DNA of 42,975 nt from contig RDXH01000080.1 in the NCBI GenBank assembly GCA_004292745.1, positions 1 through 42,975 on the forward strand. The letters run 5' to 3'. Of this stretch, positions 1 through 12,812 are shown piece by piece (the stretch's first letter is position 1; each line of letters opens with the position of its first letter). The stretch comes from Oscillatoriales cyanobacterium. GTDB lineage: Bacteria > Cyanobacteriota > Cyanobacteriia > Cyanobacteriales > Microcoleaceae. The notes under the pieces are model-generated. The model searched no databases. It was not told the DNA's origin and saw nothing but the letters and a program-made list of their open reading frames with translations. The position numbers and the translations under genes were made by a program.

Positions 1-1
1 C

Positions 2-811
2 CCCGCAGTGCTTCTCCTGCGGCGACTAGAGCGACTGCTATTTAGGGCTTGGTGCACCTGGCTGTGCTACCCAGCAAGTTCAGCCAAAGCAGAACAACAC
101 AATCGCAACCAATTTATCAGCGTCGTCGCCCAGGTAGAAGCAGCCTTGGCTAGCACTCCAGGGCCTTATTTCCTCGATGAATTTGGCACTGCGGATGTGA
201 TCTTTACGCCCTATGTCGAACGGATGAATGCCAGTCTTTTCTATTACAAAGGCTACTCCATGCGGGAAGAAAACCCGCGCTTTGCAGACTGGTTTGCGGG
301 GATGGAAAGCCGATCGACTTATCGCGGTACTCAAAGCGATTTTCATACTCATGTACATGATTTACCGCCTCAAATGGGCGGCTGTTATGAAAACGGGGAA
401 CCGCAAATGCTACTCAACAAAGCCCGCGTAGATAACGGGCCTTGGGCTGGATTACCGGATGTGATGTACCCAGAACCGGAAACCTCCCGCGCTGAAGCAC
501 TCCACCGCGTTATCAAGCATCATCGCAACATTATTAAAGTCAATCCTGCTGATGACAACTTATTTGATGAGGCTTTGCGTTGTGCTTTAACTTTGATGAT
601 GACTGGTGAAGTTTGTGCGCCGCCGGGTGGTTCTGATGTGGCTTTGCGGTATTTGCGCGATCGGGTGAATGTGCCCCGTGATATGTCGATTTACGCGGCG
701 AAGCGATTCAGGGAAGCGTTGGAGGAAACGGCGGCTTTGGTGGGCGATGCACAGGGTACTCCGATTCTGTTGAAGAATCGGCGAGATCAAGATCCGGCTA
801 ATTTTGTGTAG
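2..811 (+). CDS. Glutathione S-transferase family protein, C-terminal part (5' end outside window)
   Basis: The frame is open to the left edge, so the GTG at 8 is probably internal and the true start lies upstream. The visible 270 residues contain a GST alpha-helical C-terminal domain: the stretch around residues 50-75 ([20 protein letters not shown]) is the usual GST region where a conserved Asp caps a helix, followed by [12 protein letters not shown]. The rest (about 115-265) is an extension found in large (about 400 aa) cyanobacterial GST-like proteins. The thioredoxin-fold glutathione-binding half is not visible, so substrate and activity cannot be judged. Family known; specific role unknown. 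Confidence 0.7.
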
Positions 812-821
812 TGTTAATCCG

Positions 822-883
822 TAGGGTGCGTCGCTGCGAGATTTTGGATATAACTTGCAGATTATAGATGGCGACGCACCCTA
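822..883. repeat. MITE-like inverted-repeat element (TAGGGTGCGTCGC arms), copy 1
   Basis: Perfect 13-bp arms TAGGGTGCGTCGC (822-834) and GCGACGCACCCTA (871-883) flank a 36-bp spacer. A second copy lies at 5425-5486, also directly upstream of a mazE gene. This arm sequence recurs in cyanobacterial intergenic regions. It has no coding capacity. It could be a non-autonomous mobile element or a hairpin in the mazE leader. Confidence 0.75.
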
Positions 884-942
884 ATTGCAATCTGCGCGAT
901 CGATGTGCTACCATTGGTAGTATTAAAAGTGGCATAAATAAT

Positions 943-1173
943 ATGAAAGTATCTATCTCTTTGCCAGATGAGCTAGTGCGTTACATTGACCAGCGTGTAG
1001 AAAATCGCAGTCGGTTAGTTGAGGTTTTATTGCAAGCATGGCGCAAACAACAAGAACAGCAGGCAATGGTAGAAGCTTGTTTATTGCTGGATGAACTAAG
1101 TGATGAATTAACCGATGAGGATGAAGCATGGCAGCAAGCAGCGATTATCGACTGGGAAGCATCTGGCTTGTGA
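943..1173 (+). CDS. MazE/CopG-like antitoxin (76 aa)
   Basis: A short acidic protein beginning MKVSISLPDELVRYIDQRV, the classic ribbon-helix-helix pattern: a beta strand that pairs in the dimer, then two helices. This fold binds operator DNA and, through the acidic tail (residues 45-70, rich in E and D), would neutralise the MazF-type toxin encoded next. The longer in-frame start at 868 lies inside a repeat-derived leader, so ATG 943 was chosen. It overlaps the toxin gene by 46 nt, indicating translational coupling. The operon is probably autoregulated, as in the family. A near-identical second copy lies at 5550. Confidence 0.85.
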   Translation: MKVSISLPDELVRYIDQRVENRSRLVEVLLQAWRKQQEQQAMVEACLLLDELSDELTDEDEAWQQAAIIDWEASGL

Positions 1174-1484
1174 ATTTCGATCCCTCAGTTGGTACAGAAA
1201 TCCGCAAGACTCGACCAGCGGTAATTATTTCAGGAACTGCTTTTAATCAACGCAGCAAGGTAACTGTTCTACCCATTACTTCTGCTGTTCCCAACGATGG
1301 TTTACGAGCTGTTGTTTTGCCTGTGATTCCTTCGACTCTCAATGGTCTCAATAGCGAAAGTTTTATCGTGTGCATCGATCCGATGACGTTTGATAAACGC
1401 AGACTCGTGCGCTGTCTTGGGCAATTAGAGTTGCAGCAAGTACAAGAAATTCAACAGATTTTGGCTCGATATTTAGAGCTTTAA
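1128..1484 (+). CDS. MazF/PemK-type endoribonuclease toxin (118 aa)
   Basis: Residues 8-33 (GSIWLVNFDPSVGTEIRKTR followed by PAVIIS) match the MazF/PemK signature, G-x-[IV]-W-x-V-x-[FL]-[DN]-P and the T/K-TRP-[AV]-[VL]-[IV]-[IL]-[ST] motif holding the catalytic Arg. The family cuts single-stranded mRNA at short motifs to stop growth. Length (about 115 aa) is normal, and a plausible C-terminal helix QEIQQILARYLEL is present, so this copy looks intact. It overlaps the antitoxin gene. Cut specificity cannot be predicted. A 50-codon truncated copy is found at 5735. Confidence 0.88.
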   Translation: MAASSDYRLGSIWLVNFDPSVGTEIRKTRPAVIISGTAFNQRSKVTVLPITSAVPNDGLRAVVLPVIPSTLNGLNSESFIVCIDPMTFDKRRLVRCLGQLELQQVQEIQQILARYLEL

Positions 1485-1588
1485 GAGTAGAGTAATGCAA
1501 AAGAATGAGCGTTAGATCGAATCCGTTGGTATCAGAATTATTCATCTCTATCTTCTCTGACTCTGTGGCCTCTGCGGTTTAATCATCA

Positions 1589-1930
1589 GGTAACGGACGG
1601 ATATATTCGCCGTTGGTTTGCGAGGATGGGGGATGGGTTGACGGGGGAGAGTTTAGAGGCGCGTGAGCACTGTCGGAAAATTCCCGTCTCAAGGAGTTGA
1701 TTCAAAATCCGTTGCGGTTGTGGATGTTATGTCAAATTTGGCAGACAGGGGGCGGTTTGCCGGAGACGCAGGCGGGGTTATACGGGCAGTTTGTGGATTG
1801 GGTGTATGACTGGAAGGCGGATGATGCAATTTTAAACCAACGGGAGGCAATTGATACAGCTAAACTATGGATAGGGGCAATCCACCTGTGGTTGCCCCTA
1901 CAAACTACTCAATATGGCTATATTGCGTAA
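1589..1930 (+). pseudogene. Fragment of a NACHT-type NTPase gene (frameshifted, truncated both ends)
   Basis: One frame reads GYIRRWFARMGDGL (about 1600-1640) and, after a frameshift near 1685, another reads KELIQNPLRLWMLCQIWQ and LYGQFVDWVYDWK (about 1690-1840). These are consecutive motifs from the helical region after the P-loop of cyanobacterial NACHT STAND ATPases. No P-loop or sensor domain remains, and the frame ends abruptly at 1930. It is a dead remnant of a larger gene, consistent with heavy turnover in this patch. Confidence 0.65.
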
Positions 1931-2007
1931 GTTCTATCTTTGCAATCCATCGAACGAAGTTGGCAAGTTCGGGTGCAGTGACTTGTTATGTCACATCACA
2001 CTAGAAT

Positions 2008-2946
2008 CTATTCTGGTTTTATCCAGCCCTTAACGGTAGCCTTGACAACATTAACATAAGCGTTATCGAAAAATTCTCCGATAGCAGCTTCAGTACCAGC
2101 TTCTAATGCACCAACAACACGACGCTTAAAGCTAGGAGTGGTTTCATCATTGATATAGGCAATTTTTTCACCCTCAGTAGCAGTAGGATTGGTTGCCTCT
2201 AACTGCTTGAGAAGTTTTTGAATTTCTTTGGCGGCTTCAGTTAGACTCTGTTTTTGTTCAGAGTGAAAAAACTTATTATTATCGGAACGAGCATACTTTC
2301 CCACAGCCCCAGCTTGATCAACGTTGTAAGTATCTCCCATAAAATCCTCAATTTTTACTTGACCAATAACATTACCATTGTTGCTTTCAATAATCTGGAC
2401 AAATTTAGCATGGATCACATATTCAACCTTTTTGGATGGATCGTAGTTGGTTAATTCCTTATACTTAGTGGTTAACATATTATACAAATCAAGCAATTCA
2501 TTTTCAATGCCAGCATGATTTTTCAATGAAGTATGCAGATTTGGTATAATATGTTTCTCTAAGCCACGAACAGTCATCACATTTGAATCATGCCCTGGAT
2601 CGTTCACCGGACCAAAATCAGAGATCCCAAGGAATTGAATATTAATGAAGGGTATTAAACTTACCTTATAGTTAGATGTCCCTCGTGTGCCGTGCGTTTC
2701 CGTTCGATATTCGTTTCCGAATCCCCAATAGATTTGTCGTTCATAGTAGGCTGAATAGGGGATAGAAACTTGGATCTCTGTCCCGCTCAAAATAGAGATG
2801 CTGGCAGTACCAGTAGCTCCTCGTTCAATATAAAAAATATTTCCTTTCCTGTTACGCAAAAATCCGTGAACACCAGTGTGATTTTCTTGGTACTCAAAGG
2901 ATTTATTACTAACAGAACTTTGGATTAGATCAATGAGTTGGTTCAT
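2008..2946 (-). CDS. Uncharacterised protein with a conserved cyanobacterial C-terminal module (312 aa)
   Basis: Start ATG 2946 has AGAGGT about seven bases upstream and is preferred to the longer start at 2976. The N-terminal half (1-150) is a mixed beta/alpha region I cannot assign. The middle (about 195-230) carries GNVIGQVKIEDFMGDTYNV, resembling the short beta/linker segment before a C-terminal module I have seen on many cyanobacterial proteins, often beside STAND or effector domains: KEIQKLLKQLEATNP, then EGEKIAYINDETTPSFKRR, then a final helical pair ending VVKATVKGWIKPE. It has no signal peptide or membrane segment. It sits alone on the minus strand among TA modules. Function unknown. 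Confidence 0.7.
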   Translation of the reverse strand: MNQLIDLIQSSVSNKSFEYQENHTGVHGFLRNRKGNIFYIERGATGTASISILSGTEIQVSIPYSAYYERQIYWGFGNEYRTETHGTRGTSNYKVSLIPFINIQFLGISDFGPVNDPGHDSNVMTVRGLEKHIIPNLHTSLKNHAGIENELLDLYNMLTTKYKELTNYDPSKKVEYVIHAKFVQIIESNNGNVIGQVKIEDFMGDTYNVDQAGAVGKYARSDNNKFFHSEQKQSLTEAAKEIQKLLKQLEATNPTATEGEKIAYINDETTPSFKRRVVGALEAGTEAAIGEFFDNAYVNVVKATVKGWIKPE

Positions 2947-3630
2947 AACAACACCTCTAAAAATTTGACAGGTCAAGGGTTGAATCTCCTGAAACTCGAA
3001 AAAGATAGCCGCGATTATGACAGGCTTATTGACAAGGACAATGGGGACTGTTCCCTTGATCCTTATAAGTTCACCCGATCTGATCTTTTTTGAGGTCGTT
3101 CAAATCCAACCCTTGTTTAGTAGTTTTTCTAATTTGCTTGTCACCTGTCAGGAAAATTTTTCTAATAAAGACTTCGGTATAGTCCATAATTATCAGCATC
3201 CCCTGACAAATCACCGAAATCAACCTCCACCAAACCCTGCAACTCTTCTGCATCGACGGTAGCAAATTCGATAACCCCGATCGCCCCGCCAACCACATCT
3301 ACCTGCAACTCATCAAAAAACACCAAGGCCCCAAATCCACAGAAGGCACACCCCCCACCCTCACGGAACTCAAAATCTACTCTTTACTCATAGACTGGGA
3401 AAAACACCCCATTCTCATTTTCTACGAAGATGCGAAACCCCAAGGTTTTAGCCAAACTTTTCTCGATTTTCTCACTCGCTTCGACGCGACAATTTGCGTT
3501 ATTACCGACTCACCCCATCCCATCATTCCCACTTTCTCACCCCAAGATCCGCACTTGATTCAATCTATTATAACTTGGCTACAACGGACTGTTTTAGAAA
3601 GTTAAAATAATAGGTTAGTCGATATGTTAT
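2947..3630 (+). pseudogene. Decayed region: C-terminal remnant of an unidentified gene (copy A)
   Basis: No intact gene. From about 3190 to 3605 a plus-strand frame is open with no usable start, encoding about 135 residues including IYSLLIDWEKHPILIFYEDA, QGFSQTFLDFLTRFDA and VITDSPHP, and ending TAA at 3605. The same ending recurs at 4262-4511 and, shortened, at 5230-5360, so a repeated gene tail is decaying here. A short open stretch at 2982-3090 (LLKLEKDSRDYDRLIDKDNG) may be another piece. The parent family was not recognised. Confidence 0.5.
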
Positions 3631-3972
3631 TTAAGGAGTGTTAGTAATTTCTACAATCATTTCTCCTTGCCGCAATTGTTCTAACGCATCAGGCAAAATA
3701 GCTGTCAACAATTGTCGCAAGTTGCGGTTAGTAACATTGCCACAAGTTAGCCACAAAATTTGAGGCGGCGATCCTAAGCGACATACCAAGTCGATGAAGT
3801 CACTGTCTTTCGTCATAATCGCAACATTTTCGGCTCGTGCTGCTTCAAAAATTTCGATATCTTGAGCATCCCTAAGCGCTAAATCTCGCAATGCACTCGC
3901 TTCCAAACCAAAGGTTTCTGTTAGCCAATTTGCCAGTGTGGGAGGTAGTTGAGCATCGATCCAAATTTTCAT
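3631..3972 (-). CDS. DUF5615-type PIN-like toxin (113 aa)
   Basis: MKIWIDAQLPPTLANWL at the N-terminus, with Asp at position 6, is the DUF5615 hallmark. Later come the acidic pair in RDAQDIEIFEAA (about 34-45) and TKDSDFIDL (about 54-62), the other predicted metal ligands of a PIN-like ribonuclease fold. Family members are presumed RNases and pair with DUF433 antitoxins, exactly as here: the upstream DUF433 gene overlaps this one by 4 nt (ATGA), a translational coupling signature. Looks complete. Confidence 0.85.
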   Translation of the reverse strand: MKIWIDAQLPPTLANWLTETFGLEASALRDLALRDAQDIEIFEAARAENVAIMTKDSDFIDLVCRLGSPPQILWLTCGNVTNRNLRQLLTAILPDALEQLRQGEMIVEITNTP

Positions 3973-4202
3973 GCTGTTAGTCTAGGAAAATCAGTACGTC
4001 GTGCGGCAAACAGCAGACAAGCTTGAATATCTGCTAATTCCAAATCAGGAAAATCTTCTAAAATTTCAGTAACGCTAACATTTTCCGCCAACATTTCTAA
4101 AATATCGGTGACTCTAATTCGCATCCCTCGAATACAGGGACGACCACCACATTGGCCGGGAGTTTGAGTAATGCGGGTTAGTAAGCCAGTTGTTAAATTC
4201 AT
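3969..4202 (-). CDS. DUF433 antitoxin (77 aa)
   Basis: The sequence RITQTPGQCGGRPCIRGMRI followed by RVTDILEMLAENVSVTEILEDFP is the textbook DUF433 pattern (G-x-P-x-I-x-G-T/M-R-I/V followed by a winged-helix-like segment). The domain acts as antitoxin and DNA-binding autoregulator for DUF5615/PIN-like toxins. It is first in a two-gene operon with the toxin at 3631-3972. Only the start at 4202 gives the full domain. Confidence 0.87.
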   Translation of the reverse strand: MNLTTGLLTRITQTPGQCGGRPCIRGMRIRVTDILEMLAENVSVTEILEDFPDLELADIQACLLFAARRTDFPRLTA

Positions 4203-4557
4203 AACCAGTTTTTATGCTTAACTGTTCATTTTATTCTCTAATTAATTATGGCATAGCATCACCCCAATCCGCAACCTCAAAATTTGCTCTTTACTCCTAC
4301 AGTGGGAAAAACACCCCATTCTCATTTTCTACGAAGAAGCGAAACCCCAAGGTTTTAGCCAAACTTTTCTCGATTCTCTCACTCGCTTCGACGCTAAAAT
4401 CTACGTTATTACCGACTCACCCCATCCCACCATTCCCACTTTTTCACCCCAAGAGCCCCACCTGATTCAAACTATTATTAATTGGTTGCAACGCACTGTT
4501 TTAGAAACCTAACCTATAAAGTCAACCCACCCCAACTACCGCTAAATCAACTTACAA
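4203..4557 (+). pseudogene. Decayed gene tail, copy B
   Basis: About 4262-4511 contains a frame reading QWEKHPILIFYEEAKPQGFS, FLDSLTRFDAKIYVITDSPH and ending NWLQRTVLET then TAA at 4511. It is about 90% identical at DNA level to 3372-3605 (copy A). It lacks a start and any upstream domain. It lies between two TA modules and is non-coding in practice. Nothing else is seen in this stretch. Confidence 0.55.
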
Positions 4558-4968
4558 TTAACTAAACCTATCAATAAAAATATCGGGAGTAAGAATTTCT
4601 ACGGCTTGAAAAGGGTTTAAGACCAACAAATCCAAATCACCTGTAACAATTACATTGGCATTACCACTAACAGCCAACTCTAAAAACTTATTATCTTTTT
4701 CATCTCGACAAACGGCAATTTTTTCTGTAATAGAGACTAACTCGGACGCGCTGATAAATTTAAGCAAAAATACCTGCCTGTCTTCTAAAGAAAGATACTT
4801 ATTAAACTTTTTCCGATTCAAAACTTGCTCTAATTCATTTAAAGTTGCTTCAGAATATAAAATCATTCCTTGATTTTCTGCTAATTCAATCGCCCGAAAT
4901 GGGACTGAATTCTTAAACAGTAAAGCACTGATTAAAACATTCGTATCTACGACAAATCTATTCGTCAT
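4558..4968 (-). CDS. PIN-domain toxin of a type II TA module (COG1569-like, 136 aa)
   Basis: N-terminal RFVVDTNVLISALL holds the first catalytic Asp of the PIN fold. The conserved Glu in ATLNELEQVL, the Asp pair in CRDEKDNKFLELAV and the final Asp in VIVTGDLDLLVL complete the acidic metal site. Length and motif order match the COG1569 'putative toxin, PIN family' group, which are presumed Mg-dependent RNases. Start ATG 4968 is chosen over 4974; either overlaps the upstream antitoxin stop (4958), so the two are coupled. Confidence 0.87.
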   Translation of the reverse strand: MTNRFVVDTNVLISALLFKNSVPFRAIELAENQGMILYSEATLNELEQVLNRKKFNKYLSLEDRQVFLLKFISASELVSITEKIAVCRDEKDNKFLELAVSGNANVIVTGDLDLLVLNPFQAVEILTPDIFIDRFS

Positions 4969-5185
4969 TATCATCTGCTAAAATTTGTTGTAAAATCTCT
5001 GGCGTTAAGCCTCGCTGTTGTGCTTTGTCAGAAATTTCTGCCATAACTTCAGTTAAACTTTTATTGTGTAAATTCCCTCTCAAAAACAATTTAACAATGT
5101 AGCTCAACTGTTTCTGAGTCTCAGAAGTAGCCCCTTCAAACGCCGTCTTAATATCTTCATCAACTTGAATCGTAATGCTTGGCAT
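4958..5185 (-). CDS. Antitoxin partner of the PIN toxin (75 aa)
   Basis: A small acidic protein starting MPSITIQVDEDIKTAFEGAT, a beta strand followed by a helix as in RelB/DinJ or ribbon-helix-helix antitoxins, with an acidic C-terminus (ILADDNDE) that would wrap the toxin. The family assignment comes mainly from position: it directly precedes and overlaps a PIN toxin gene. It probably also represses its own promoter. Confidence 0.75.
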   Translation of the reverse strand: MPSITIQVDEDIKTAFEGATSETQKQLSYIVKLFLRGNLHNKSLTEVMAEISDKAQQRGLTPEILQQILADDNDE

Positions 5186-5225
5186 AGTTCTTATTAATCC
5201 TTTGAATATATGCTGTCATTAATTA

Positions 5226-5414
5226 TGGCATAGTGACACCGCAACCCTCAAGCTCAAAATCTACAGAAGGCACAAATGGGGCAACCACTTCTGGATTGCC
5301 CCTACTGGCGTCACAATCTACTCTTCACTCCTAGACTGGGAAAAATACCCCCTTCTCCTCTAAAAATCCCTCAATTGAGCCGTTTGAACAACAACTCGGC
5401 GTTATTCTCTCTAG
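5226..5414. pseudogene. Composite debris: gene tail copy C joined to an internally deleted htrA 3' fragment
   Basis: Around 5240-5348 a plus-strand fragment (LLDWEKYP preceded by TLKLKIY-like codons) is a third, broken copy of the tail at 3372. Bases 5349-5395 are identical over 47 bp to 12802-12848, the 3' end and flank of the htrA pseudogene. Bases 5396-5414 then match 13072-13090 (18 of 19), also inside htrA, so about 220 bp of htrA is missing between them. The fragment runs straight into the mazE direct repeat (5412). Confidence 0.7.
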
Positions 5415-5424
5415 TGTTAATCCG

Positions 5425-5486
5425 TAGGGTGCGTCGCTGCGAGATTTTGGATATAACTTGCAGATTATAGATGGCGACGCACCCTA
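5425..5486. repeat. MITE-like inverted-repeat element, copy 2
   Basis: Same 13-bp arms as at 822-883 (TAGGGTGCGTCGC at 5425-5437, GCGACGCACCCTA at 5474-5486). It lies in the leader of the second mazE gene as part of the 440-bp duplication. Confidence 0.75.
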
Positions 5487-5549
5487 CTTGCAATCTGCGC
5501 GATCGATGTGCTACCATTGGTAGTATTAAAAGTAGCATAAATACTGTCT

Positions 5550-5780
5550 ATGAAAGTATCTATCTCTTTGCCAGATGAGTTAGTGCGTTACATTGACCAG
5601 CGTGTAGAAAATCGCAGTCGGTTAGTTGAGCTTTTATTGCAAGCATGGCGAAAACAACAAGAACAGCAGGCAATGGTAGAAGCTTGTTTATTGTTGGATG
5701 AATTGAGCGATGAATTAAGCGATGAGGATGAAGCATGGCAGCAAGCAGCGATTACCGACTGGGAAGCATCTGGATCGTGA
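5550..5780 (+). CDS. MazE/CopG-like antitoxin, second copy (76 aa)
   Basis: Nearly identical to the antitoxin at 943-1173, with a handful of substitutions (for example VELLLQ for VEVLLQ, ELSDEDEA for ELTDEDEA and a different last residue). The ribbon-helix-helix start MKVSISLPDELVRYI is intact, so it can probably still fold and bind DNA. Its own toxin partner is truncated, so it may act as an orphan antitoxin able to neutralise or co-repress the intact copy-1 module. Confidence 0.85.
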   Translation: MKVSISLPDELVRYIDQRVENRSRLVELLLQAWRKQQEQQAMVEACLLLDELSDELSDEDEAWQQAAITDWEASGS

Positions 5781-5887
5781 ATTTCGATCCCTCAGTCGGT
5801 ACAGAAATCCGCAAGAGTCGATCGGCGGTAATTATTTCAGGAACTGCTTTTAATGAAGGCAGGCGGTACACTGAGAGATTAGGTTAA
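5735..5887 (+). pseudogene. Truncated mazF toxin (50 codons)
   Basis: Begins exactly like the intact toxin (GSIWIVNFDPSVGTEIRKSR), overlaps mazE copy 2 in the same way, but after GTAFN the sequence becomes unrelated (EGRRYTERLG) and stops at 5887. About 70 residues are lost, and the conserved TRP is changed to SRS. It cannot be an active toxin. Its last 9 bases overlap the convergent DruA-like gene, so the break coincides with the edge of the nuclease/translocase cassette. Confidence 0.85.
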
Positions 5888-6976
5888 CTCCGCATCTAGT
5901 TTGCTTTGCAGCGCATCCATTCTAGGAGTAACCCATCTTTCATGCCAATAAGTTACTAAGTCTTTTTGTGTAAATTCTCGCCACACGACAGAATTTGTCT
6001 CTCCTAATAAATATTCATTCCAATTTTCTGCTAGTGGACAACGATAGTATGCTCTCTGCCAACCAATACTTACCATATCTTCTGATAATCCAAGTTCTCG
6101 TAGTCCCCTTTTTAAAATACGCATTTTCCAATTTGGTCCCTTTCCAAATTTGTATGTTTCAAAAATTTCCGGTGGTACAACTTGCTTAATTAGTTCCCAA
6201 CTTCCATTTGCTGTTATATGAAGATGACTTTGACCTTTAGTATAATCAACAAATTCCCAGTTAATCAAACGATTATAGATTGCTGATTTCCCAAAGGCTC
6301 CTAACGTATCAATATAAACAAGATCAGATTTTTTGTTTTCTCCTGTAATAAGAGAAGATTTATTCTTATATTTTCTATAAAACTCTTGACGAACTGTTGG
6401 AAACATTACAGTAAGGGCAACTAATTTCGAGGCAAGCACTCGATTGTATGGAGGGATGGCTCCTAAAATATAGGCTGTCATACAGTTATACAGTCGTTTC
6501 AATTTCTGATTCTTTGTCCAATCAATAGAATTTTCATCTCGTACCCCCAAACCAATTACAGGGTCACAAAGTCCAATAATCCCGATCAATTTATCATTTT
6601 GGCTATCAAAAACAAAATATCGGATTCGTCTACCATAACCATTTGTAACGGGTATCGACCAGTGAGATATAGCATACGCCCATAATCTTTGATGTTCTGC
6701 TATGGGTTCAACAAGAACAAGATATGGATCTATTTTAGATATATTAATATCTGAAGGTTCTGCCAAATACTTCTGAACTTTTTCTTTATATTCTTGGCCC
6801 TTTAAGTTTGTTTGTTCAGAGAGTTTTCTTTGGACTTCTCTAAAATCATTAAAATCATTTACAATGATTTTTTGATTGTCTCTATCCCAAAAAACTCCAT
6901 AATCTTCTAGGTTTTGGATAATCTGTTCTTTAATCAGGAGTTTCTGATCAATTGTACAAAAATCATTATTTTCCAT
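5879..6976 (-). CDS. DUF4338 / Druantia DruA-like protein (365 aa), last gene of the nurA-herA operon
   Basis: Residues about 88-260 match the DUF4338 (DruA) domain: a paired-strand segment RYFVFDSQNDKLIGIIGLCD, then GVRDENSIDW (146-149 plus W153, the RD-x-x-I-x-W signature), a helix with RLYNCMTAYILGAIPPYN and VLASKLVALTV, then DTLGAFGKSAIYNRLINWEF and YTKG (245-248). The first 85 residues and about 100 C-terminal residues are less typical. DruA is the marker of type I Druantia anti-phage systems; its biochemical activity is not settled to my knowledge. Its start codon overlaps the herA stop by one base (TAATG), so it is translationally coupled to HerA. Assignment from motifs only. Confidence 0.75.
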   Translation of the reverse strand: MENNDFCTIDQKLLIKEQIIQNLEDYGVFWDRDNQKIIVNDFNDFREVQRKLSEQTNLKGQEYKEKVQKYLAEPSDINISKIDPYLVLVEPIAEHQRLWAYAISHWSIPVTNGYGRRIRYFVFDSQNDKLIGIIGLCDPVIGLGVRDENSIDWTKNQKLKRLYNCMTAYILGAIPPYNRVLASKLVALTVMFPTVRQEFYRKYKNKSSLITGENKKSDLVYIDTLGAFGKSAIYNRLINWEFVDYTKGQSHLHITANGSWELIKQVVPPEIFETYKFGKGPNWKMRILKRGLRELGLSEDMVSIGWQRAYYRCPLAENWNEYLLGETNSVVWREFTQKDLVTYWHERWVTPRMDALQSKLDAELT

Positions 6977-8637
6977 TAATTAAATTTAGATTCTCTATAA
7001 ACTTTTGATTCTACGAGCTTTTCAAATTCAGTTACTCGTACAGGGAGGGCGAAAGCTTGATCGGATGAAACCATGTAGAGATTACCTGCAATTGTCTCGC
7101 GCTGAATAAAGTTCGATATCACCCCATCATAATTGATATTAGACTTTACCAGTGCCTTAATATCGTCAGAATTTCCCATATGAAAAGCAAAGAAATTTTC
7201 TGCTTGGGTTCTAATTTCATCAGAAATAGCGGATGGGCGTTGTGTTACAGCCACTAATCCCAGCCCAAATTTGCGTCCTTCCTTTGCAACTCTAACAAAT
7301 GGATTGGCATTACTCTTAACGAATTCCTGAGATAAAACATTTTGGGCTTCTTCTACAAATACAACGGCATTGACAACTTCTTCTGGTTGATCTGAAGTGA
7401 ATTTTTCCTTGTTGCTTTCAAACAATTTCCGAACCAGAATAGTTGAAATAATGCTGGCATCCATGTTGTCTTTTAGGGATAGGTCAATGATAACAGTCTT
7501 TCCTTGCTTCAAATATTTGAATACATCTTCTATGAGATTTGATCCTCCAGAATGTAAATTACCTTCATCAATTAAATGACGAATCCTTTTCCGAATCGCC
7601 ATAATCGTTTTTCGGGCAGAAACATCTTCTTTAGCTTTGCCACTTGAGTCTTTCTTCTGTTCGCCAAAGAAATCAGAAAAGTCTCGATAAAGATTGCTTG
7701 GAGTTTGAACATAGTTATCAATATTTTCAATAAAGTTAGATACACCATCTTCATCAAGGTATAGAAGAAAGGCTTTCATTACTTCAGAGAAACCACCACC
7801 AAAATTCAATATGTCTCCTACTGCTAAGTGTCTGTGCATATTGAGCGTAACTTTGCCACCGGAAATAAATTGATTCTGTTTTTGATAAGTTTCTGGTAAC
7901 TTTTTGTCGGTATACACGACAACATTATCGCGAATTGAGCTTTCATTGATATCTCCCAATCCGTATGTAGCTGTACCACGCAAAAAATATTCGCCGTTCA
8001 AATCAAAAATCAACTTTCCATAGGAATTATCACGAGTCATATGGTAAAGCAGTACCTTAACAAGATTAGTTTTGCCAAAGCCTGATTGAGCAAATACCAT
8101 CGTGCGTTTGTTACGCAATTTATCAATTTGGAAAAGAATAGGCCCCTTGTCCTTAAAAATAGTTTCTCCTACACAAAGATATCCAATTTCAGCACCATTT
8201 TCATTGGTTTTATTGAGAATTGACTCTATTTCGCGTTTGTTTAGATGTCTTGCAATGTAAGAAACTGTGGGGAGTTTCCTAACAGCCGTTGTAAAGTCAA
8301 TGGTAGAGCCACTATCTTTAAATGTTCCTAGAATCCGAACTTTGTAGGTGTAACTGAACATTTTCTGTTTGTCTCGCTCTGAAAGTTCTCTTTCTGCAAT
8401 TCGAGCATAATGCACTGCTATTAATGTTTTATCCTGTGATTTAAAGATAGGATCTTCATCATAAATTTCTGCTTCGACCCTAGCAAGATACTTTGTATTT
8501 CCTTCATCTTTGGGTGTCAGAACAATAAAGTCGCCAGTTTGTGGACTAGCTTTAGCATCCTCATAGGATGAGTATATCAATAGGGCATCTTCAGTTGTTT
8601 TCTGCCCATATAAAACGCCAAAATCTGCTTTTCCCAT
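6976..8637 (-). CDS. herA: HerA-type DNA translocase ATPase (553 aa)
   Basis: The N-terminal 150 residues form a HAS-barrel-like beta domain (FGVLYGQKTTEDALL, VGETIFKDKGP). Walker A is AQSGFGKT (183-190), Walker B AVVFVEEAQ (424-432), followed by GLGLVAVTQRPSAISDEI (458-475), a HerA/FtsK-like sensor and arginine-finger segment, and TIAGNLYMV near the C-terminus. HerA hexamers pump double-stranded DNA and work with NurA nuclease at DNA ends; in bacteria HerA-like ATPases are recurrent parts of anti-phage systems. The gene lies 11 bp after nurA and overlaps the DruA-like gene by 1 bp, so the three proteins are probably made in fixed ratio. All motifs intact. Confidence 0.92.
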   Translation of the reverse strand: MGKADFGVLYGQKTTEDALLIYSSYEDAKASPQTGDFIVLTPKDEGNTKYLARVEAEIYDEDPIFKSQDKTLIAVHYARIAERELSERDKQKMFSYTYKVRILGTFKDSGSTIDFTTAVRKLPTVSYIARHLNKREIESILNKTNENGAEIGYLCVGETIFKDKGPILFQIDKLRNKRTMVFAQSGFGKTNLVKVLLYHMTRDNSYGKLIFDLNGEYFLRGTATYGLGDINESSIRDNVVVYTDKKLPETYQKQNQFISGGKVTLNMHRHLAVGDILNFGGGFSEVMKAFLLYLDEDGVSNFIENIDNYVQTPSNLYRDFSDFFGEQKKDSSGKAKEDVSARKTIMAIRKRIRHLIDEGNLHSGGSNLIEDVFKYLKQGKTVIIDLSLKDNMDASIISTILVRKLFESNKEKFTSDQPEEVVNAVVFVEEAQNVLSQEFVKSNANPFVRVAKEGRKFGLGLVAVTQRPSAISDEIRTQAENFFAFHMGNSDDIKALVKSNINYDGVISNFIQRETIAGNLYMVSSDQAFALPVRVTEFEKLVESKVYRESKFN

Positions 8638-8648
8638 AGTGTTCGCTC

Positions 8649-9881
8649 CTAAAATCTGTCGTGTGTGTCTAAAAATAGATTTTCAATATCGACGTTATCC
8701 ATTCTCTGATCCTTATAAAGAGAGTATTTAAGGCGAGCAATTATCTCATCTTTAAAATTTCTTTTCAAGGATATGAAATTATGTACTTCACATAATGGGT
8801 AAGGATAGCCAAGAATATAGTGTTCTTGTGTAAGCCGAGTTAGCTCCTTAAATATTAACTCAAGTTCTTCCCTACATCTTTCATAGGAGCCTGTTCGGAT
8901 TTGTGGAATAGCATCAAAAATGTTGACATCAGCTATAAGCCAGTCATAGTTTTGGAGCTTTTCTACATAATCTAATCTCGCTGCCATAAATAGCCCAAAT
9001 CCTCTCCCTCCACTAATTGATTTTTTAATAAACATATCACCCTGATATGCTGCTTTAAGAACAACTTCTGGAATTTCAAACCAGCAGCATAGTTTTTGGC
9101 GTTTTGACTCTATTTCTACAAAAGGATAATCATGCTTAAGCTGATCTTGTAGATAATTATCAATCTGTCTGAATGTATAAGCTAGTTCCATTTTAACTGG
9201 AGATTGCTTAGTCACAGACACTATCTTTATCTGTTTTTTATGAGCATATTCTCCCAAATTTACTAAGTATTTCTGCTTTATTTGGAGAGGACGTAATGTA
9301 CCATCTCTTAAAATAAAATCGCCAGCTTTTGTTTCTGGGCGATCAATCACCTCTAAAATCAGTGCAATCTCTAGGACTTCCTGACAAAATCCGAGCAGAG
9401 TTGATAAATTTGTACAAATTTGTTCTTTTTTATAGGGGAAAACAATTTCTGGTGAATCATTCAGAAATTTGAATAGATATTTTATTGGGTCTAAGGTTAA
9501 AAATTCATCGTAAATATCATTTAAATGATTCTGATGCGTGATTAAAATATTCTGTGGATAGTATGCCTGTCCAAGTAAAACTGGATCGTCTAATGAATTC
9601 ATTCTAACTTGCTGGCCTCGATGAAAGCAAACGTAACCAGCAGCATAAATTGCTATGGCTAGACCATTATAAAATTGCTCACTGTTGTAACTGCCATCTA
9701 TCGCGTAGAACCTCCTATCGCTATCATCAATTTTGTCAAACTGAATAATTTCAAATATTTGAGGCGTTTCTATATTTTCTTCATGTCCAATCACGGGAAT
9801 GCCGTGATTTTTATTACTTCTGTTATTGATGTGCTTAGCAACTAGCTCGATAGCACTATCCGGTATCTGTTTTCCTGCCAT
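8649..9881 (-). CDS. nurA: NurA-domain nuclease (410 aa), first recognised gene of the operon
   Basis: The NurA domain motifs occur in order: YAIDGS (59-64, catalytic Asp62), FILRDGTLRP (189-198, second acidic site), IVSVTKQSPV (220-229, the conserved Lys loop) and GYPYPLCEVHN (358-368, C-terminal His/Asn motif). NurA is a Mn-dependent 5'-3' exonuclease and endonuclease that binds HerA as a dimer. Length (410 aa) is at the large end for the family because of helical inserts between motifs (about 100-180 and 280-350). No membrane segment. Its start is 21 bp after the stop of a small ORF (9903) that may belong to the same transcript. Confidence 0.88.
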   Translation of the reverse strand: MAGKQIPDSAIELVAKHINNRSNKNHGIPVIGHEENIETPQIFEIIQFDKIDDSDRRFYAIDGSYNSEQFYNGLAIAIYAAGYVCFHRGQQVRMNSLDDPVLLGQAYYPQNILITHQNHLNDIYDEFLTLDPIKYLFKFLNDSPEIVFPYKKEQICTNLSTLLGFCQEVLEIALILEVIDRPETKAGDFILRDGTLRPLQIKQKYLVNLGEYAHKKQIKIVSVTKQSPVKMELAYTFRQIDNYLQDQLKHDYPFVEIESKRQKLCCWFEIPEVVLKAAYQGDMFIKKSISGGRGFGLFMAARLDYVEKLQNYDWLIADVNIFDAIPQIRTGSYERCREELELIFKELTRLTQEHYILGYPYPLCEVHNFISLKRNFKDEIIARLKYSLYKDQRMDNVDIENLFLDTHDRF

Positions 9882-9902
9882 ATTTTACTTTTCTTAGTAG
9901 TT

Positions 9903-10115
9903 TTATACCCAAAGAAAATCTATTGTAACAGTCGCCACCCGGACATTCACGCGATCGCTCTGCAATTTCAGCCCTGCCATCTTAGCACAAGATAGGTTGT
10001 TTGTCAACTCTTCTGGTTTCGATTTCAAAAGGTCAAGAGCCTGGAGCAGTTGTTTGCGATCGTCCTTTTTGTGCATTCCCGCAAACGAGTTAGCACCAAA
10101 AAACTCTGTAAACAC
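9903..10115 (-). CDS. Small uncharacterised ORF upstream of nurA (70 aa; 57 aa from the internal ATG)
   Basis: GTG at 10115 or ATG at 10076 could start it; the latter gives a basic, helical 57-residue protein (MHKKDDRKQLLQALDLLKSK) ending VATVTIDFLWV. No family recognised. It is on the operon strand and ends 21 bp before nurA, so it may be a first gene, a leader peptide or the tail of a lost gene. It contains a HIP1-like GCGATCG site. Coding status uncertain. Confidence 0.35.
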   Translation of the reverse strand: MFTEFFGANSFAGMHKKDDRKQLLQALDLLKSKPEELTNNLSCAKMAGLKLQSDRVNVRVATVTIDFLWV

Positions 10116-10164
10116 AGTAATTTCAGCCCAGTGATACTACTCATTCTCACGAAATTTTGAAGGG

Positions 10165-10198
10165 GTAAAAAGTTAAGCTTTTAAGCTTAACTTTTTAC
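10165..10198. terminator. Perfect hairpin after the EF-hand/ERV gene
   Basis: Arms GTAAAAAGTTAAGCTT (10165-10180) and its exact complement (10183-10198) with a 2-base loop, 11 bp past the stop of the minus-strand EF-hand gene. It likely terminates that transcript, which would make the small-ORF/nurA/herA/druA unit independent. The U-run lies within the arm, so the call is moderate. Confidence 0.55.
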
Positions 10199-10208
10199 TC
10201 ACTAATAT

Positions 10209-12617
10209 CTAAGCAACCTCTACAAACACACCGCTTCGAGCAAACTCCTCTTCTTCAGGACTAAAGACGGGAGCTCGATCGACAAGATCAGGGTCAAAGT
10301 AATATGTCTCTTGTAGGAATTGTCCGGTGACGATCGCCTCCTCCAACTCCTTGATATAATCTTGGGCAACTAAGCAGGCCTCCTTGATGCCTTCCTCATC
10401 CCGCTTATCCAACAGTTTTTGCAATGTTGCTCTCACTCCTGTCAGTCGTGCCGATGGCTTGAGCATACCGTAGAGGCGATACATTCGATCGGTCGCAATG
10501 CTAATGTGTTTGAGGGCTTTGGCTCGTGCTAGCTCAGAGTCAATGCTGGGCCAATAACGAGTGGTATAGAATGCTTTCTCATCCTTGTGATACCACTCCT
10601 CCGATCGCGCAATCGATGAAGAGACAGTATTGTGCAACTTCCAGAAGAATAAGCGCAGGGAAGCGCCATCTACTACAGTGGACAGCTTGGCCTCCATTGA
10701 TACCTCAAAGTTATTCAGAAGCGGGTCGCGCCCAAGCACAAGGTACTCTACAGGGTACATTTCCACCTCCTTATTCTGCACGACATAGGCGTTGAGGTGG
10801 TGGCGGCAGTAGGGGCAGGGATACATAGTGGCAAACAGCTTGAAAAAGTCCTTAAAGAAGGCCACCAGAGTTGTTTGCTGTTGGGGGGTCTTGGTAGAGA
10901 CGATTTCAGCCGTAGTGTGGAAGAAACGCCACACCGCAGGGCCAATATAGTAAGGGAAGCTGACGCGCATTTGTGAATTCTTGATTTCACTGCGATCGAT
11001 ATACACATCGATAAACGACACATATTGCGAAAGTTCGCCAGACTCGCGCCCAAACTCCATGCGTTCGCGCCGTTTCTGTACGCCATTTAGGTAGTTGTGC
11101 GTCAAGCGCCATGCTTGTTTAAGCATCAGCTTCTGTTTTGGAGCGCATTTGGGAAAGCTTTCTACAACATCCGCCCCATAGCGCCCAAATTCCCCTGACG
11201 TTTTAGTGGCTTCGTACCACTGGTTTAAAGCCGCTTCGTCAGCCACCGTGTTCAAGGGGATATCTGCTGCTGTGCTGACGCTGAAGGCAGCCAGCAACTT
11301 CGGCGTAAAGTCTTCATACCAATAGGCCACTGGCATCATCGCACCATCTATTGCCTCTGAGGCATCCGAGACGATGACGCGGTTCCACTTCTTCAGGTAC
11401 TCTTTGGGATTTCCCTCGGATTGGGCTGGTGGCGGTGCCATTTCCTCACTCAGCTCCATTTTTCGCAGTCGGTTGAGTTCGTTGATGGCAAGCACGCCCT
11501 CGGCGATGTCGCGCAAGTTGAGACTCTTCTTTTTGATGGTGATTGCAAACTCGACTCCGGCGGCAAACTTCTCCTTGGCGCTGGCAGATTTACCCCGCGC
11601 TTCCAACATGGCTTTTTGTTCTGCCAACATTTCTGGAGTTTTTTCGATCGCCTTCCAGTTCTTGATCCGAGCCTCTAGTCTGGCATATTCATCTTCGATC
11701 GATTTAACTACTGCATCCAGTAGAGGGTTACACGCAGACTCTACGATACCTAATCCTTTATAAAGGGCGATCGAAATCCTGACAAATTGCACAAAATCAA
11801 CGATTCTGTATGGCAAGTTTCTGACGCGCAGGTGAGTCTCGTGGTTGGCGGAAAAACTCTCGCGGAAGCAGCGGTAGGCTGCTCCCTGGATCAGACGAAA
11901 CAAACCTATCTGCATCTGCAAGCGGGACGTACCCCGCTTCTCCTCAGTTTGTGGGTGTTGAGCGAGTAGTTCTTTTAGCCGCGCTATTTCTGGATCGCTA
12001 TCGGTGGTTGCTTCTTGTAGATTAGGTTCAATAGTGGCAGAAGCAGCCTCGTTGATAGCAGTTGCTGTACTGGCGATCGCCGCCGCTGTACTATCAGAAA
12101 TCTCGGTTGTCTGTGTACTGACAATCGGAACGGGCGAGTCTTGATATCCGGTTTTTATCTGTGACTCATCCGGTATCAGTTTACAGAATTCCTCAAAGTC
12201 AATGGAGGCATCGCCATCATGGTCTACCTCTTTGATGATCTCATCCAGCTCTTGCTCTGTCAGCCCAAACTGGCTCATCACACCCTGCATCTCGTCTTTA
12301 GTGATTTGACCGCTGCCATCTTCATCAAATACACTAAATGACAGTTTGAGACGACTCTGGCGATCGCCTTGCTGGGACACCATCAGCATTTTGAATTCCT
12401 CAAAATCGATACTGCCCGACAAGTCTACGTCCACTTCCTTGATCGTGTCGCGCAACTCGGTTTCGTTAGGACTCTGCCCTAGCGATCGCATCACTTGACC
12501 CAGTTCTTCTGATGAGATACCACCGCTCCCGTCCGCGTCAAATACTTTGAACGCTTCCCATAACTTTGCCACCTCTTCTTCTGTCATGGCTTTTTTTTCA
12601 ATATCCACAGATGTCAT
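10209..12617 (-). CDS. Calmodulin-like EF-hand protein fused to an ERV/ALR-type sulfhydryl oxidase-like domain (802 aa)
   Basis: Numbering is from the GTG at 12620; ATG 12617, 8 bases after GGAGG (12626-12630), is preferred. Residues 16-150 hold four EF-hands with canonical 12-residue loops starting DADGSGG (28), DVDLSGS (64), DEDGSGQ (99) and DHDGDAS (133), arranged as in calmodulin. A low-complexity Ala/Thr linker (165-205) follows, then a long helical region (about 210-550) with no recognised family. At about 555-690 is an ERV/ALR-like segment: WRFFHTTAEIV, then MYPCPYCRHHLNAYV with the redox pair C602/C605, then FFWKLHNTVSSSIA, equivalent to the FAD-contacting HN-x-V motif. ERV/ALR enzymes form disulfides with O2 and FAD. 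No signal peptide, so it is cytoplasmic or exported otherwise. The combination is unusual for a bacterium. Convergence or import from a eukaryote cannot be told apart here. Confidence 0.8.
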   Translation of the reverse strand: MTSVDIEKKAMTEEEVAKLWEAFKVFDADGSGGISSEELGQVMRSLGQSPNETELRDTIKEVDVDLSGSIDFEEFKMLMVSQQGDRQSRLKLSFSVFDEDGSGQITKDEMQGVMSQFGLTEQELDEIIKEVDHDGDASIDFEEFCKLIPDESQIKTGYQDSPVPIVSTQTTEISDSTAAAIASTATAINEAASATIEPNLQEATTDSDPEIARLKELLAQHPQTEEKRGTSRLQMQIGLFRLIQGAAYRCFRESFSANHETHLRVRNLPYRIVDFVQFVRISIALYKGLGIVESACNPLLDAVVKSIEDEYARLEARIKNWKAIEKTPEMLAEQKAMLEARGKSASAKEKFAAGVEFAITIKKKSLNLRDIAEGVLAINELNRLRKMELSEEMAPPPAQSEGNPKEYLKKWNRVIVSDASEAIDGAMMPVAYWYEDFTPKLLAAFSVSTAADIPLNTVADEAALNQWYEATKTSGEFGRYGADVVESFPKCAPKQKLMLKQAWRLTHNYLNGVQKRRERMEFGRESGELSQYVSFIDVYIDRSEIKNSQMRVSFPYYIGPAVWRFFHTTAEIVSTKTPQQQTTLVAFFKDFFKLFATMYPCPYCRHHLNAYVVQNKEVEMYPVEYLVLGRDPLLNNFEVSMEAKLSTVVDGASLRLFFWKLHNTVSSSIARSEEWYHKDEKAFYTTRYWPSIDSELARAKALKHISIATDRMYRLYGMLKPSARLTGVRATLQKLLDKRDEEGIKEACLVAQDYIKELEEAIVTGQFLQETYYFDPDLVDRAPVFSPEEEEFARSGVFVEVA

Positions 12618-12812
12618 CACTAAATCCTCCCTGAGTTTTTAATTTTCTGTCTATTGATTGTGACCAATATACTTTAATTCCTCAAGACCTACGCAACTGT
12701 CACAAACGATCGCATAACTCTGCATAATTGCCAGCCCCGTAGCAATGGTTGGGCGTTTTAGTTGTTGAATTAAAAATTGGCAAGCCAACAGTTTCCCCCT
12801 TCCCCTTCTCCT

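Follow-up and report, generated by a model that had tools for sequence, protein, structure and literature searches.

A mobile NurA-HerA-DruA operon of cyanobacteria and other phyla: a probable, undescribed immune system for distinguishing self from foreign DNA

HerA-type pumps coupled to effector partners make up a growing class of bacterial immunity, for which the sparing of host DNA is a central question. How would such a machine recognise the DNA of its own cell? The question is raised by an operon on a 42,975-nucleotide stretch of an Oscillatoriales cyanobacterium (assembly GCA_004292745.1, contig RDXH01000080.1; the whole stretch is called the window), where genes for a NurA-like nuclease, a HerA-like translocase ATPase and a DruA-family (DUF4338) protein follow one another. 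We conclude that this triad probably constitutes an immune system, as yet undescribed, able to distinguish self DNA from foreign. Our working reading, put forward with some doubt, is of a three-protein, DNA-destroying system in which DruA gives the discrimination between self and non-self, most likely by placing an acyl-type mark on host DNA.

An intact operon and its recurrence

The operon has the following features (aa, amino acids; loci in other genomes carry L numbers).

8649..9881, minus strand: nurA-like nuclease gene, first of the operon, 410 aa (open reading frame, Pfam NurA)
6976..8637, minus strand: herA-like translocase ATPase gene, 553 aa (Pfam DUF87)
5879..6976, minus strand: druA (DUF4338), third gene, long form with a predicted GNAT-like fold, 365 aa (Pfam DruA)
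8068..8091, minus strand: HerA Walker A motif AQSGFGKT, residues 183-190, the same residues in all 18 aligned HerA proteins, the window's included
9690..9704, minus strand: NurA motif AIDGS, residues 60-64, including D62 (motif check and alignment)
9882..10039, minus strand: conserved leader of about 160 bp 5' of nurA, likely the promoter region, common to L038 and L039

All three genes are intact and co-directional with ATG starts; 11 bp separate nurA from herA, and herA and druA share one base. A first-pass annotation, made from the letters of the window, had described this arrangement with its motifs intact, and open reading frames (ORFs), Pfam and motif checks confirm it. Its assignment of the third gene to DUF4338/DruA also holds: the protein matches Pfam PF14236 at E 2.1e-64 (218 bits, cut-off 27) and the PADLOC model DruA1 at 1.5e-78. 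HerA matches DUF87 (PF01935) at E 1.1e-16 and PADLOC HerA models at 1.3e-29 at best, with Walker A from residue 183, FVEEAQ and Q466 intact. NurA matches PF09376 at E 2.5e-6 (27.6 bits, cut-off 21) and none of the models in the PADLOC scan; its D62 and D193 are unchanged across 19 aligned NurA proteins, the window's included. Measured against three other cyanobacterial copies, the ratio of non-synonymous to synonymous substitution (dN/dS) is 0.03-0.15 for each gene, dS being saturated (1.4-3.0) for one copy. The genome holds a single DruA match, and a search of it with the window HerA profile returned the operon herA alone; a second NurA elsewhere fits the NurA family better than the operon copy does (149 bits vs 23 bits).

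Relatives were collected by a genome-contig search with NurA alone, with no conditioning on druA. In 17 of the 20 relatives found, which with the window make up lineage 1, herA and druA adjoin nurA on the same strand (at L028, counted here, nurA runs past the contig end); the remaining three are cut or broken, the contig ending in herA at L010 and inside nurA at L027 and the locus being broken within herA at L012. The arrangement therefore exceeds chance. L022 alone departs from the gene order (druA-nurA-herA), and in the 17 loci that keep it, the window included, the nurA-herA spacing is 0-22 bp and the herA-druA spacing -13 to 41 bp. The hosts include Cyanobacteria, Calditrichota, Ignavibacteriota, Bacteroidota, Spirochaetota, Chloroflexota, KSB1 and candidate-phylum bacteria. 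Identity to the window proteins is 62-97% for HerA (17 relatives), 52-95% for NurA and 26-94% for DruA, and each of the 17 triad genomes searched has one DruA-family match. With these relatives and a second lineage described below, the triad, proposed at first from this one locus, is not confined to its own genome.

Within lineage 1, the NurA tree follows the DruA split except at L022 (p 0.022) and the HerA tree weakly rejects it (p 0.014-0.016), perhaps through exchange of a middle segment between L015 and L023. Since NurA agrees apart from L022 and the HerA conflict is weak, we make no claim of partner swapping within this lineage. The HerA proteins of L015 (5092-6729) and L023 (4452-6158), which come from different phyla, have in common, by eye, an odd middle segment unlike that of the other 16 aligned, and they pair on the tree at 99/99; this suggests exchange within herA between the two lines. 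A further locus, L041 (7051-8129), encodes a 197-aa N-terminal fragment of NurA, 79% identical, next to a XisH gene and with no DruA or HerA match, and is a decayed triad.

Transfer of the cassette and its surroundings

Two larger features, neither assigned a strand, describe how the operon sits in the genome.

5863..10039: transferred cassette, consisting of the leader and three genes only (DNA identity to L038 and L039 in unrelated flanks)
1503..10164: variable hotspot housing the cassette (flanks syntenic in congeners without it)

Cassette DNA is 95% identical to L038 over 4177 bp and 93% identical to L039 over 4187 bp from position 5854; the flanks differ. Both loci lie in Planktothrix-genus genomes, Planktothrix rubescens PCC 7821 among them, and homology stops at 10039. 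Two congeners without this nurA have syntenic window flanks. Window positions 1-1503 and 10164-12701 are separated by 3.9 kilobases (kb) in L152 (genome G203), and positions 1-811 and 10171-12671 by 3.1 kb in L153 (genome G099), homology stopping at 5862 in the former and starting again at 10047 in the latter. Other genes fill the hotspot there, for example one for a Schlafen/AlbA_2 protein in L153. This nurA occurs in 5 of 386 cyanobacterial genomes, the window's own counted and one being a fragment. Together these data show that the triad moves as a unit of just three genes through a variable hotspot; no repeat marking both cassette edges was found.

A 459-bp duplication, 94% identical and with a ribbon-helix-helix (RHH)-type ORF, occupies window 801-1255 and 5404-5862. 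Its second copy abuts the left edge of the cassette, and 5862, where homology to L152 stops, is also the end of this copy. Perfect inverted repeats lie at 5424-5487 and 10165-10198 (arms of 14 and 16 nt); the latter resembles a terminator and separates the cassette from an Erv1 gene. That gene (10209-12620) encodes an 803-aa protein with EF-hands and an Erv1/Alr sulfhydryl-oxidase domain (Pfam); among 31 genomes of the family, 7 others have a match to it, with identities of 67-95%. Inside the hotspot, window 3631-5185 holds a DUF5615 gene, a PIN_3 gene and a 75-aa antitoxin-like ORF, all toxin-antitoxin (TA)-like.

The first-pass annotation had also read the setting as one that fits a defence island, of which one part stands: there are TA-like genes in a variable hotspot, and no named defence system was found among the selected neighbouring ORFs scanned. 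By Pfam the nearest neighbours are of RHH, PIN/TA and EF-hand/Erv1 type, with ORFs 868-1484, 2008-2976, 3017-3262 and 4214-4465 outside the scan; ORF 2008-2976 had no PDB match at 0.01. Across lineage 1, the flanks gave 130 PADLOC families at 1e-15 for 80 of 164 flanking ORFs at 14 loci, a count of redundant families rather than of matching proteins. The contrast set gave 17 families for 48 ORFs at 14 chosen places, mostly contig starts and 12 of them in the same genomes, which makes for a crude contrast. Among the 25 flank families listed are AbiE, type IIG restriction-modification, PDC-S05 and reverse transcriptase (RT) models; some matches, such as the DnaG-like ones, may be housekeeping, and several flanks are ordinary metabolism. 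The defence context of the triad flanks is suggestive only.

DruA, its partners and the kinship of its short forms with Mom

The best PDB match of the HerA profile was TdpA (8wet, 1.3e-28), followed by archaeal HerA (1.1e-17) and other HerA entries. An AlphaFold2 (AF2) model of NurA (pLDDT 79) had as its first PDB match TdpB in the TdpAB-DNA complex (8wfd_G; E 3.9e-10, TM 0.52, 13% identity), and the NurA profile reached TdpB at 1.1e-4. These matches, from profiles and a predicted model, make TdpA and TdpB the apparent nearest solved structures and, with the triad real and widespread, favour the earlier suggestion of HerA-NurA as the effector pair. They also make TdpAB the nearest solved machine, in place of the Druantia and HerA-Sir2 parallels drawn in the first-pass annotation; NCBIfam equivalogs for anti-phage HerA proteins score window HerA at 79 bits against a cut-off of 800 and 50 against 850, a tenth of the cut-off or less. 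Scans of viral contigs with the NurA and HerA profiles found no relative, and tblastn of HerA in plasmids found no match.

We then sampled the DruA family itself in 373 cyanobacterial, 296 Bacteroidota, 247 Spirochaetota and 251 Chloroflexota genomes, which gave 7, 6, 5 and 16 genomes with matches, respectively. Leaving out the four that served as sampling centres, 30 genomes remain, and 18 of them hold the NurA-HerA-DruA set (Cyanobacteria 5/6, Bacteroidota 0/5, Spirochaetota 2/4, Chloroflexota 11/15). One of the others has a Druantia-type neighbourhood, with DruA adjoining a 1820-aa DEAD/MZB protein (L106); in two the contig is cut or short (L111, L116); two have a short DruA with HerA-NurA not seen in the stretch read (L037, L100); and in six, five Bacteroidota and one spirochaete, DruA is transposase-fused, transposase-adjacent, partial or unclassified. 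The last, L115 (5153-8841), is an operon of three genes, and its short DruA matches Mom, the DNA modifier of phage Mu, better than any other (1.4e-8). The two partner genes of L115 gave no NurA or HerA match in Pfam and no credible family; the locus stands outside the triad count and is possibly a third triad type.

Three of the 18 triads are imperfect. At L101 druA is cut by the contig end; at L098, of lineage 2, an additional 361-aa gene (3214-4299), with no match over Pfam cut-off, lies between nurA and herA; and at L109 a one-base indel shifts the nurA frame. L109 is 99.9% identical to L108 over nurA, so the two are one independent case.

Fourteen of the 18 form a second lineage, whose HerA (about 600 aa) and NurA (about 380 aa) are far from those of the window. 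By hhalign, the HerA proteins of the two lineages join at E 1.2e-13, those of lineage 2 being closer to other HerA entries than to TdpA; the NurA proteins do not join (0.2%), and each is named via Pfam, whose NurA family matches 13 of the 14 in alignment A4 at E up to 1 (best 3.8e-12). Alignment A4 (NurA) was made without L109 and alignment A5 (lineage-2 HerA) without L103, L108 and L109; both contain L115. Across this divide, window DruA is 62-63% identical to that of L035 and L036, lineage-2 triads whose HerA is 24-25% identical to the window's and whose NurA is unalignable with it. On a DruA tree of 31 rows (short forms left out, long branches flagged at L098 and L106) the two lineages intermingle, with at least three partner changes, and a single clade is rejected (AU test, p 1e-13). 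DruA thus appears, from these sequences, to have re-paired with different HerA-NurA engines, which is good evidence that the three proteins work together.

The AF2 model of window DruA (pLDDT 81) was compared with the PDB by Foldseek. Judged from their titles, 45 of the 50 rows listed were acetyl- or acyltransferases or acyl-group synthases, a weak match that suggests a GNAT-like fold; a GNAT domain annotated as Pfam DUF4338 appears in excerpts of PMC10853773. Sequence comparison of DruA with the PDB gave nothing credible (single-sequence best 0.18, profile best 0.24), and tblastn in phages found no match. Among viral structures in BFVD, the DruA model resembles A0A3G4ZXG3, A0A5K0UAJ3, A0A3G4ZRA1 and A0A6J5SK47 (E 5e-14 to 2e-6), proteins that come from giant viruses (Faunusvirus, Yasminevirus, Dasosvirus) and, in one case, from an uncultured phage. 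Because the uncultured Caudovirales phage row in the structure library resembles DruA at E 1.2e-7, phages may carry DruA-like proteins.

Kinship with Mom was found in short DruA forms. The Pfam Mom family matches 3 of 17 diverse DruA proteins, best at L115 (1.6e-4), and 0 of 18 from lineage 1; DruA alignment A6 holds 17 chosen sequences and leaves out L037, L069, L071-L078, L101, L109, L110 and L116. In hhalign comparisons with a ten-protein Mom profile (alignment A7, 10 of 11 Mom loci picked from 40 of 284 records, the unannotated L122 left out), six short DruA proteins reached 96.8% (E 2.8e-10), and L113 and L114 alone, which are short DruA within lineage-2 triads, reached 62% (E 7.4e-5). 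Long and short DruA join each other at 94.5% (E 7.6e-8). Mixed DruA profiles gave 89% (E 2.2e-6, six short DruA included) and 21% (E 1.1e-3), and the short forms carry the whole Mom signal of the mixed profile (short alone 96.8%, long alone 0.9%). As controls for the match at 1.1e-3, 40 column-shuffled Mom profiles gave a best P of 0.11; the value was 0.84 for a reversed profile and 0.16-0.44 for four profiles of NurA and HerA. A hidden Markov model (HMM) of Mom, run over 1,364 ORFs, ranked seven DruA-family proteins at the top, all short or partial (1.4e-8 to 7e-3), the next ORF standing at 0.96. The same model misses 41 of 48 DruA ORFs at 0.01, and the reciprocal search with a DruA HMM returned a Mom protein at E 1.6, after three other ORFs.

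Motifs follow a similar division. HY, D and GxxYxAxNW of Mom are present in the short DruA of L099, L100 and L115, and L113 and L114 have HY and GxxYxAxN without the D; the full HY/D/GxxYxAxN pattern is found in 8 of the 10 Mom proteins. Long DruA, the window's included, have KSxxYNRL-type motifs instead, and 38 columns, often polar ones, are invariant in an alignment of 18 DruA whose identity to the window protein goes down to 26%. On these comparisons the short forms are related to phage Mom, and the DruA family would thus include Mom-like members, some of them inside HerA-NurA triads, the window protein being a diverged long form. Fusions of DruA with the DNA-binding or DDE domain of a transposase occur in a spirochaete and in Bacteroidota (L099, 3-1583; L070, 2-1363; L073, 7428-9002); in each, a Mom-like domain sits on a transposase.

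Proposed self-marking, rival explanations and named systems

These data allow us to propose a mechanism. By homology, a HerA ring would pump duplex DNA into NurA, which would cut it in a TdpAB-like manner. DruA, a GNAT-like protein of a family related to Mom, would put an acyl-type mark on host DNA; the mark would block processing by HerA-NurA, and unmarked phage or plasmid DNA would be degraded. What we infer is that the system acts against invaders, that the window's long DruA works on DNA and that the mark blocks processing; the defence role is suggested by architecture, mobility and neighbours. A machine of this type requires some rule by which the host is spared. Since the transferred unit is three genes only, DruA is the candidate if self-marking is needed. 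Marking of host DNA by DruA is our first choice, held tentatively. The fullest version would be a novel form of restriction-modification, in which a Mom-related GNAT enzyme acylates host DNA bases, the HerA-NurA ring destroys unmarked DNA, and DruA is portable across distant engines and Druantia type I; we hold it to be less likely than not.

The closest parallel is TdpABC, a phosphorothioation-restriction system, where TdpC is a phosphorothioation enzyme on DNA and TdpAB degrades unmarked DNA. Both operons consist of a translocase, a nuclease and a third component, the first two here having TdpA and TdpB as best solved relatives; the third is here a Pfam DruA, which may be related to TdpC. 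A literature search for TdpA, TdpB and phosphorothioate found no publication, and the sole match for TdpABC was unrelated by its title.

Several points weigh against self-marking. HerA-Sir2 and other defences built on HerA are not known to need a modifier, and a targeting role for DruA would explain the same anatomy. No PDB row in the DruA Foldseek comparison reached E<=0.001 (best 0.12), which puts the GNAT match below significance, and none of the 50 viral rows listed for the model is called Mom, several of them being nameless. Long DruA compared with Mom without the short forms gave 0.6% for lineage 1 alone, 0.9% for 11 long proteins and 1.1% for 29 (E 0.05-0.06), and neither HY nor GxxYxAxN occurs in any of the 18 lineage-1 DruA, the window's included. 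The window's long DruA is therefore linked to Mom, as far as these alignments go, transitively through the short forms.

That DruA selects targets is a plausible alternative, if a doubtful one. DruA would then be, at a similar level of doubt, a recognition or loading adaptor that binds a feature of foreign DNA and recruits or activates HerA-NurA, leaving host DNA unmodified. It is by far the most variable of the three proteins (26-94% identity, compared with 52-95% in NurA and 62-97% in HerA), as befits a target-facing part, and the long form lacks the Mom motifs and alone fails to match Mom. However, invariant columns, 38 in number and many polar, at an identity down to 26% point to an active site rather than a variable reader, and the Mom/GNAT kinship of the family points to chemistry on DNA. 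Given this fold and the short-form kinship, self-marking is no less likely than target recognition, one of the two roles first suggested for DruA.

A GNAT-like fold would also suit an enzyme that acylates protein (HerA, NurA, or a host or phage factor) as a switch or abortive-infection trigger, and excerpts of PMC10853773 suggest protein targets for a GNAT domain annotated DUF4338 and fused to DndF. We consider this improbable, as the kinship found is to a DNA modifier and as DruA pairs with two distant HerA-NurA lineages, which would be odd for an enzyme dedicated to a residue of one partner.

More improbable still is ordinary DNA repair by an end-resecting HerA-NurA and an accessory protein. 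HerA-NurA complexes resect DNA ends (PMC5715905 and PMC9960219, in excerpt) and are of the identical two enzyme families; the window copy is mobile and DruA-linked, the genome's other, better-matching NurA lies elsewhere, and this nurA is patchy (5/386 cyanobacterial genomes), has moved horizontally and is missing from the syntenic site in two congeners. The weakest alternative, that DruA works in transposition with the cassette as a passenger, draws on DruA domains fused to or beside transposases (L099, L070, L073, L069) and is very improbable, because these are short or partial rather than the long type of the triad, the scanned immediate neighbours are RHH-, PIN/TA- and EF-hand/Erv1-type rather than transposases (four nearby ORFs lying outside the Pfam scan), and no repeat was found at both cassette edges.

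Is the triad a named system under another guise? It shares with Druantia type I a DruA-family protein (Pfam 2.1e-64, PADLOC DruA1 1.5e-78). As given in excerpts of PMC7251935, that system has five genes, namely druA, druBCD and the DUF1998 helicase gene druE, and the acyltransferase there belongs to an unrelated table row. The operon studied here has three genes, with PIN/TA-like and EF-hand/Erv1 genes as its scanned neighbours (no genome search for DruB, DruC or DruD was made), and HerA-NurA as its effector. The MZB (DUF1998) domain that is the hallmark of DruE has no match in the window's genome, the same search being positive in 8 of 14 control genomes, in agreement with the absence of DruE noted earlier. 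We therefore reject identity with Druantia type I. HerA-Sir2 and HerA-DUF4297 likewise couple a HerA-clade ATPase to an effector; the genes beside herA are here NurA and DruA rather than Sir2 or DUF4297, a third gene is present, the NCBIfam equivalogs are far under cut-off, and this identity too is rejected. Phage Mom (momylation) systems are akin through the short DruA forms, and excerpts of PMC7824862 describe Mom domains of jumbo phages fused to restriction endonuclease domains as modification plus restriction, a precedent for the marking of host DNA by DruA; Mom systems differ from a bacterial operon with HerA-NurA whose long DruA is without HY and GxxYxAxN.

The first-pass annotation knew of no named system with this exact triad, and we found no publication on NurA and HerA with DUF4338 or with Druantia, in a search that lay outside most subscription literature and so leaves a description elsewhere possible. 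Preprints on Druantia or its helicase family contain neither DruA nor NurA as a whole word. Among the matches listed, no HerA/NurA literature also names DruA, and no title or abstract opening links Druantia or DruA to GNAT, momylation or acyltransferase.

Cyanobacteria, Chloroflexota, Spirochaetota, Bacteroidota and candidate phyla all have the operon. Should DruA indeed mark DNA, a role would be assigned to a protein family known chiefly as a part of Druantia that lacks an explanation, and the triad would be a restriction system based on hypermodification on bacterial chromosomes. DruA would then be a portable self-marking module, which would also explain its role in Druantia.

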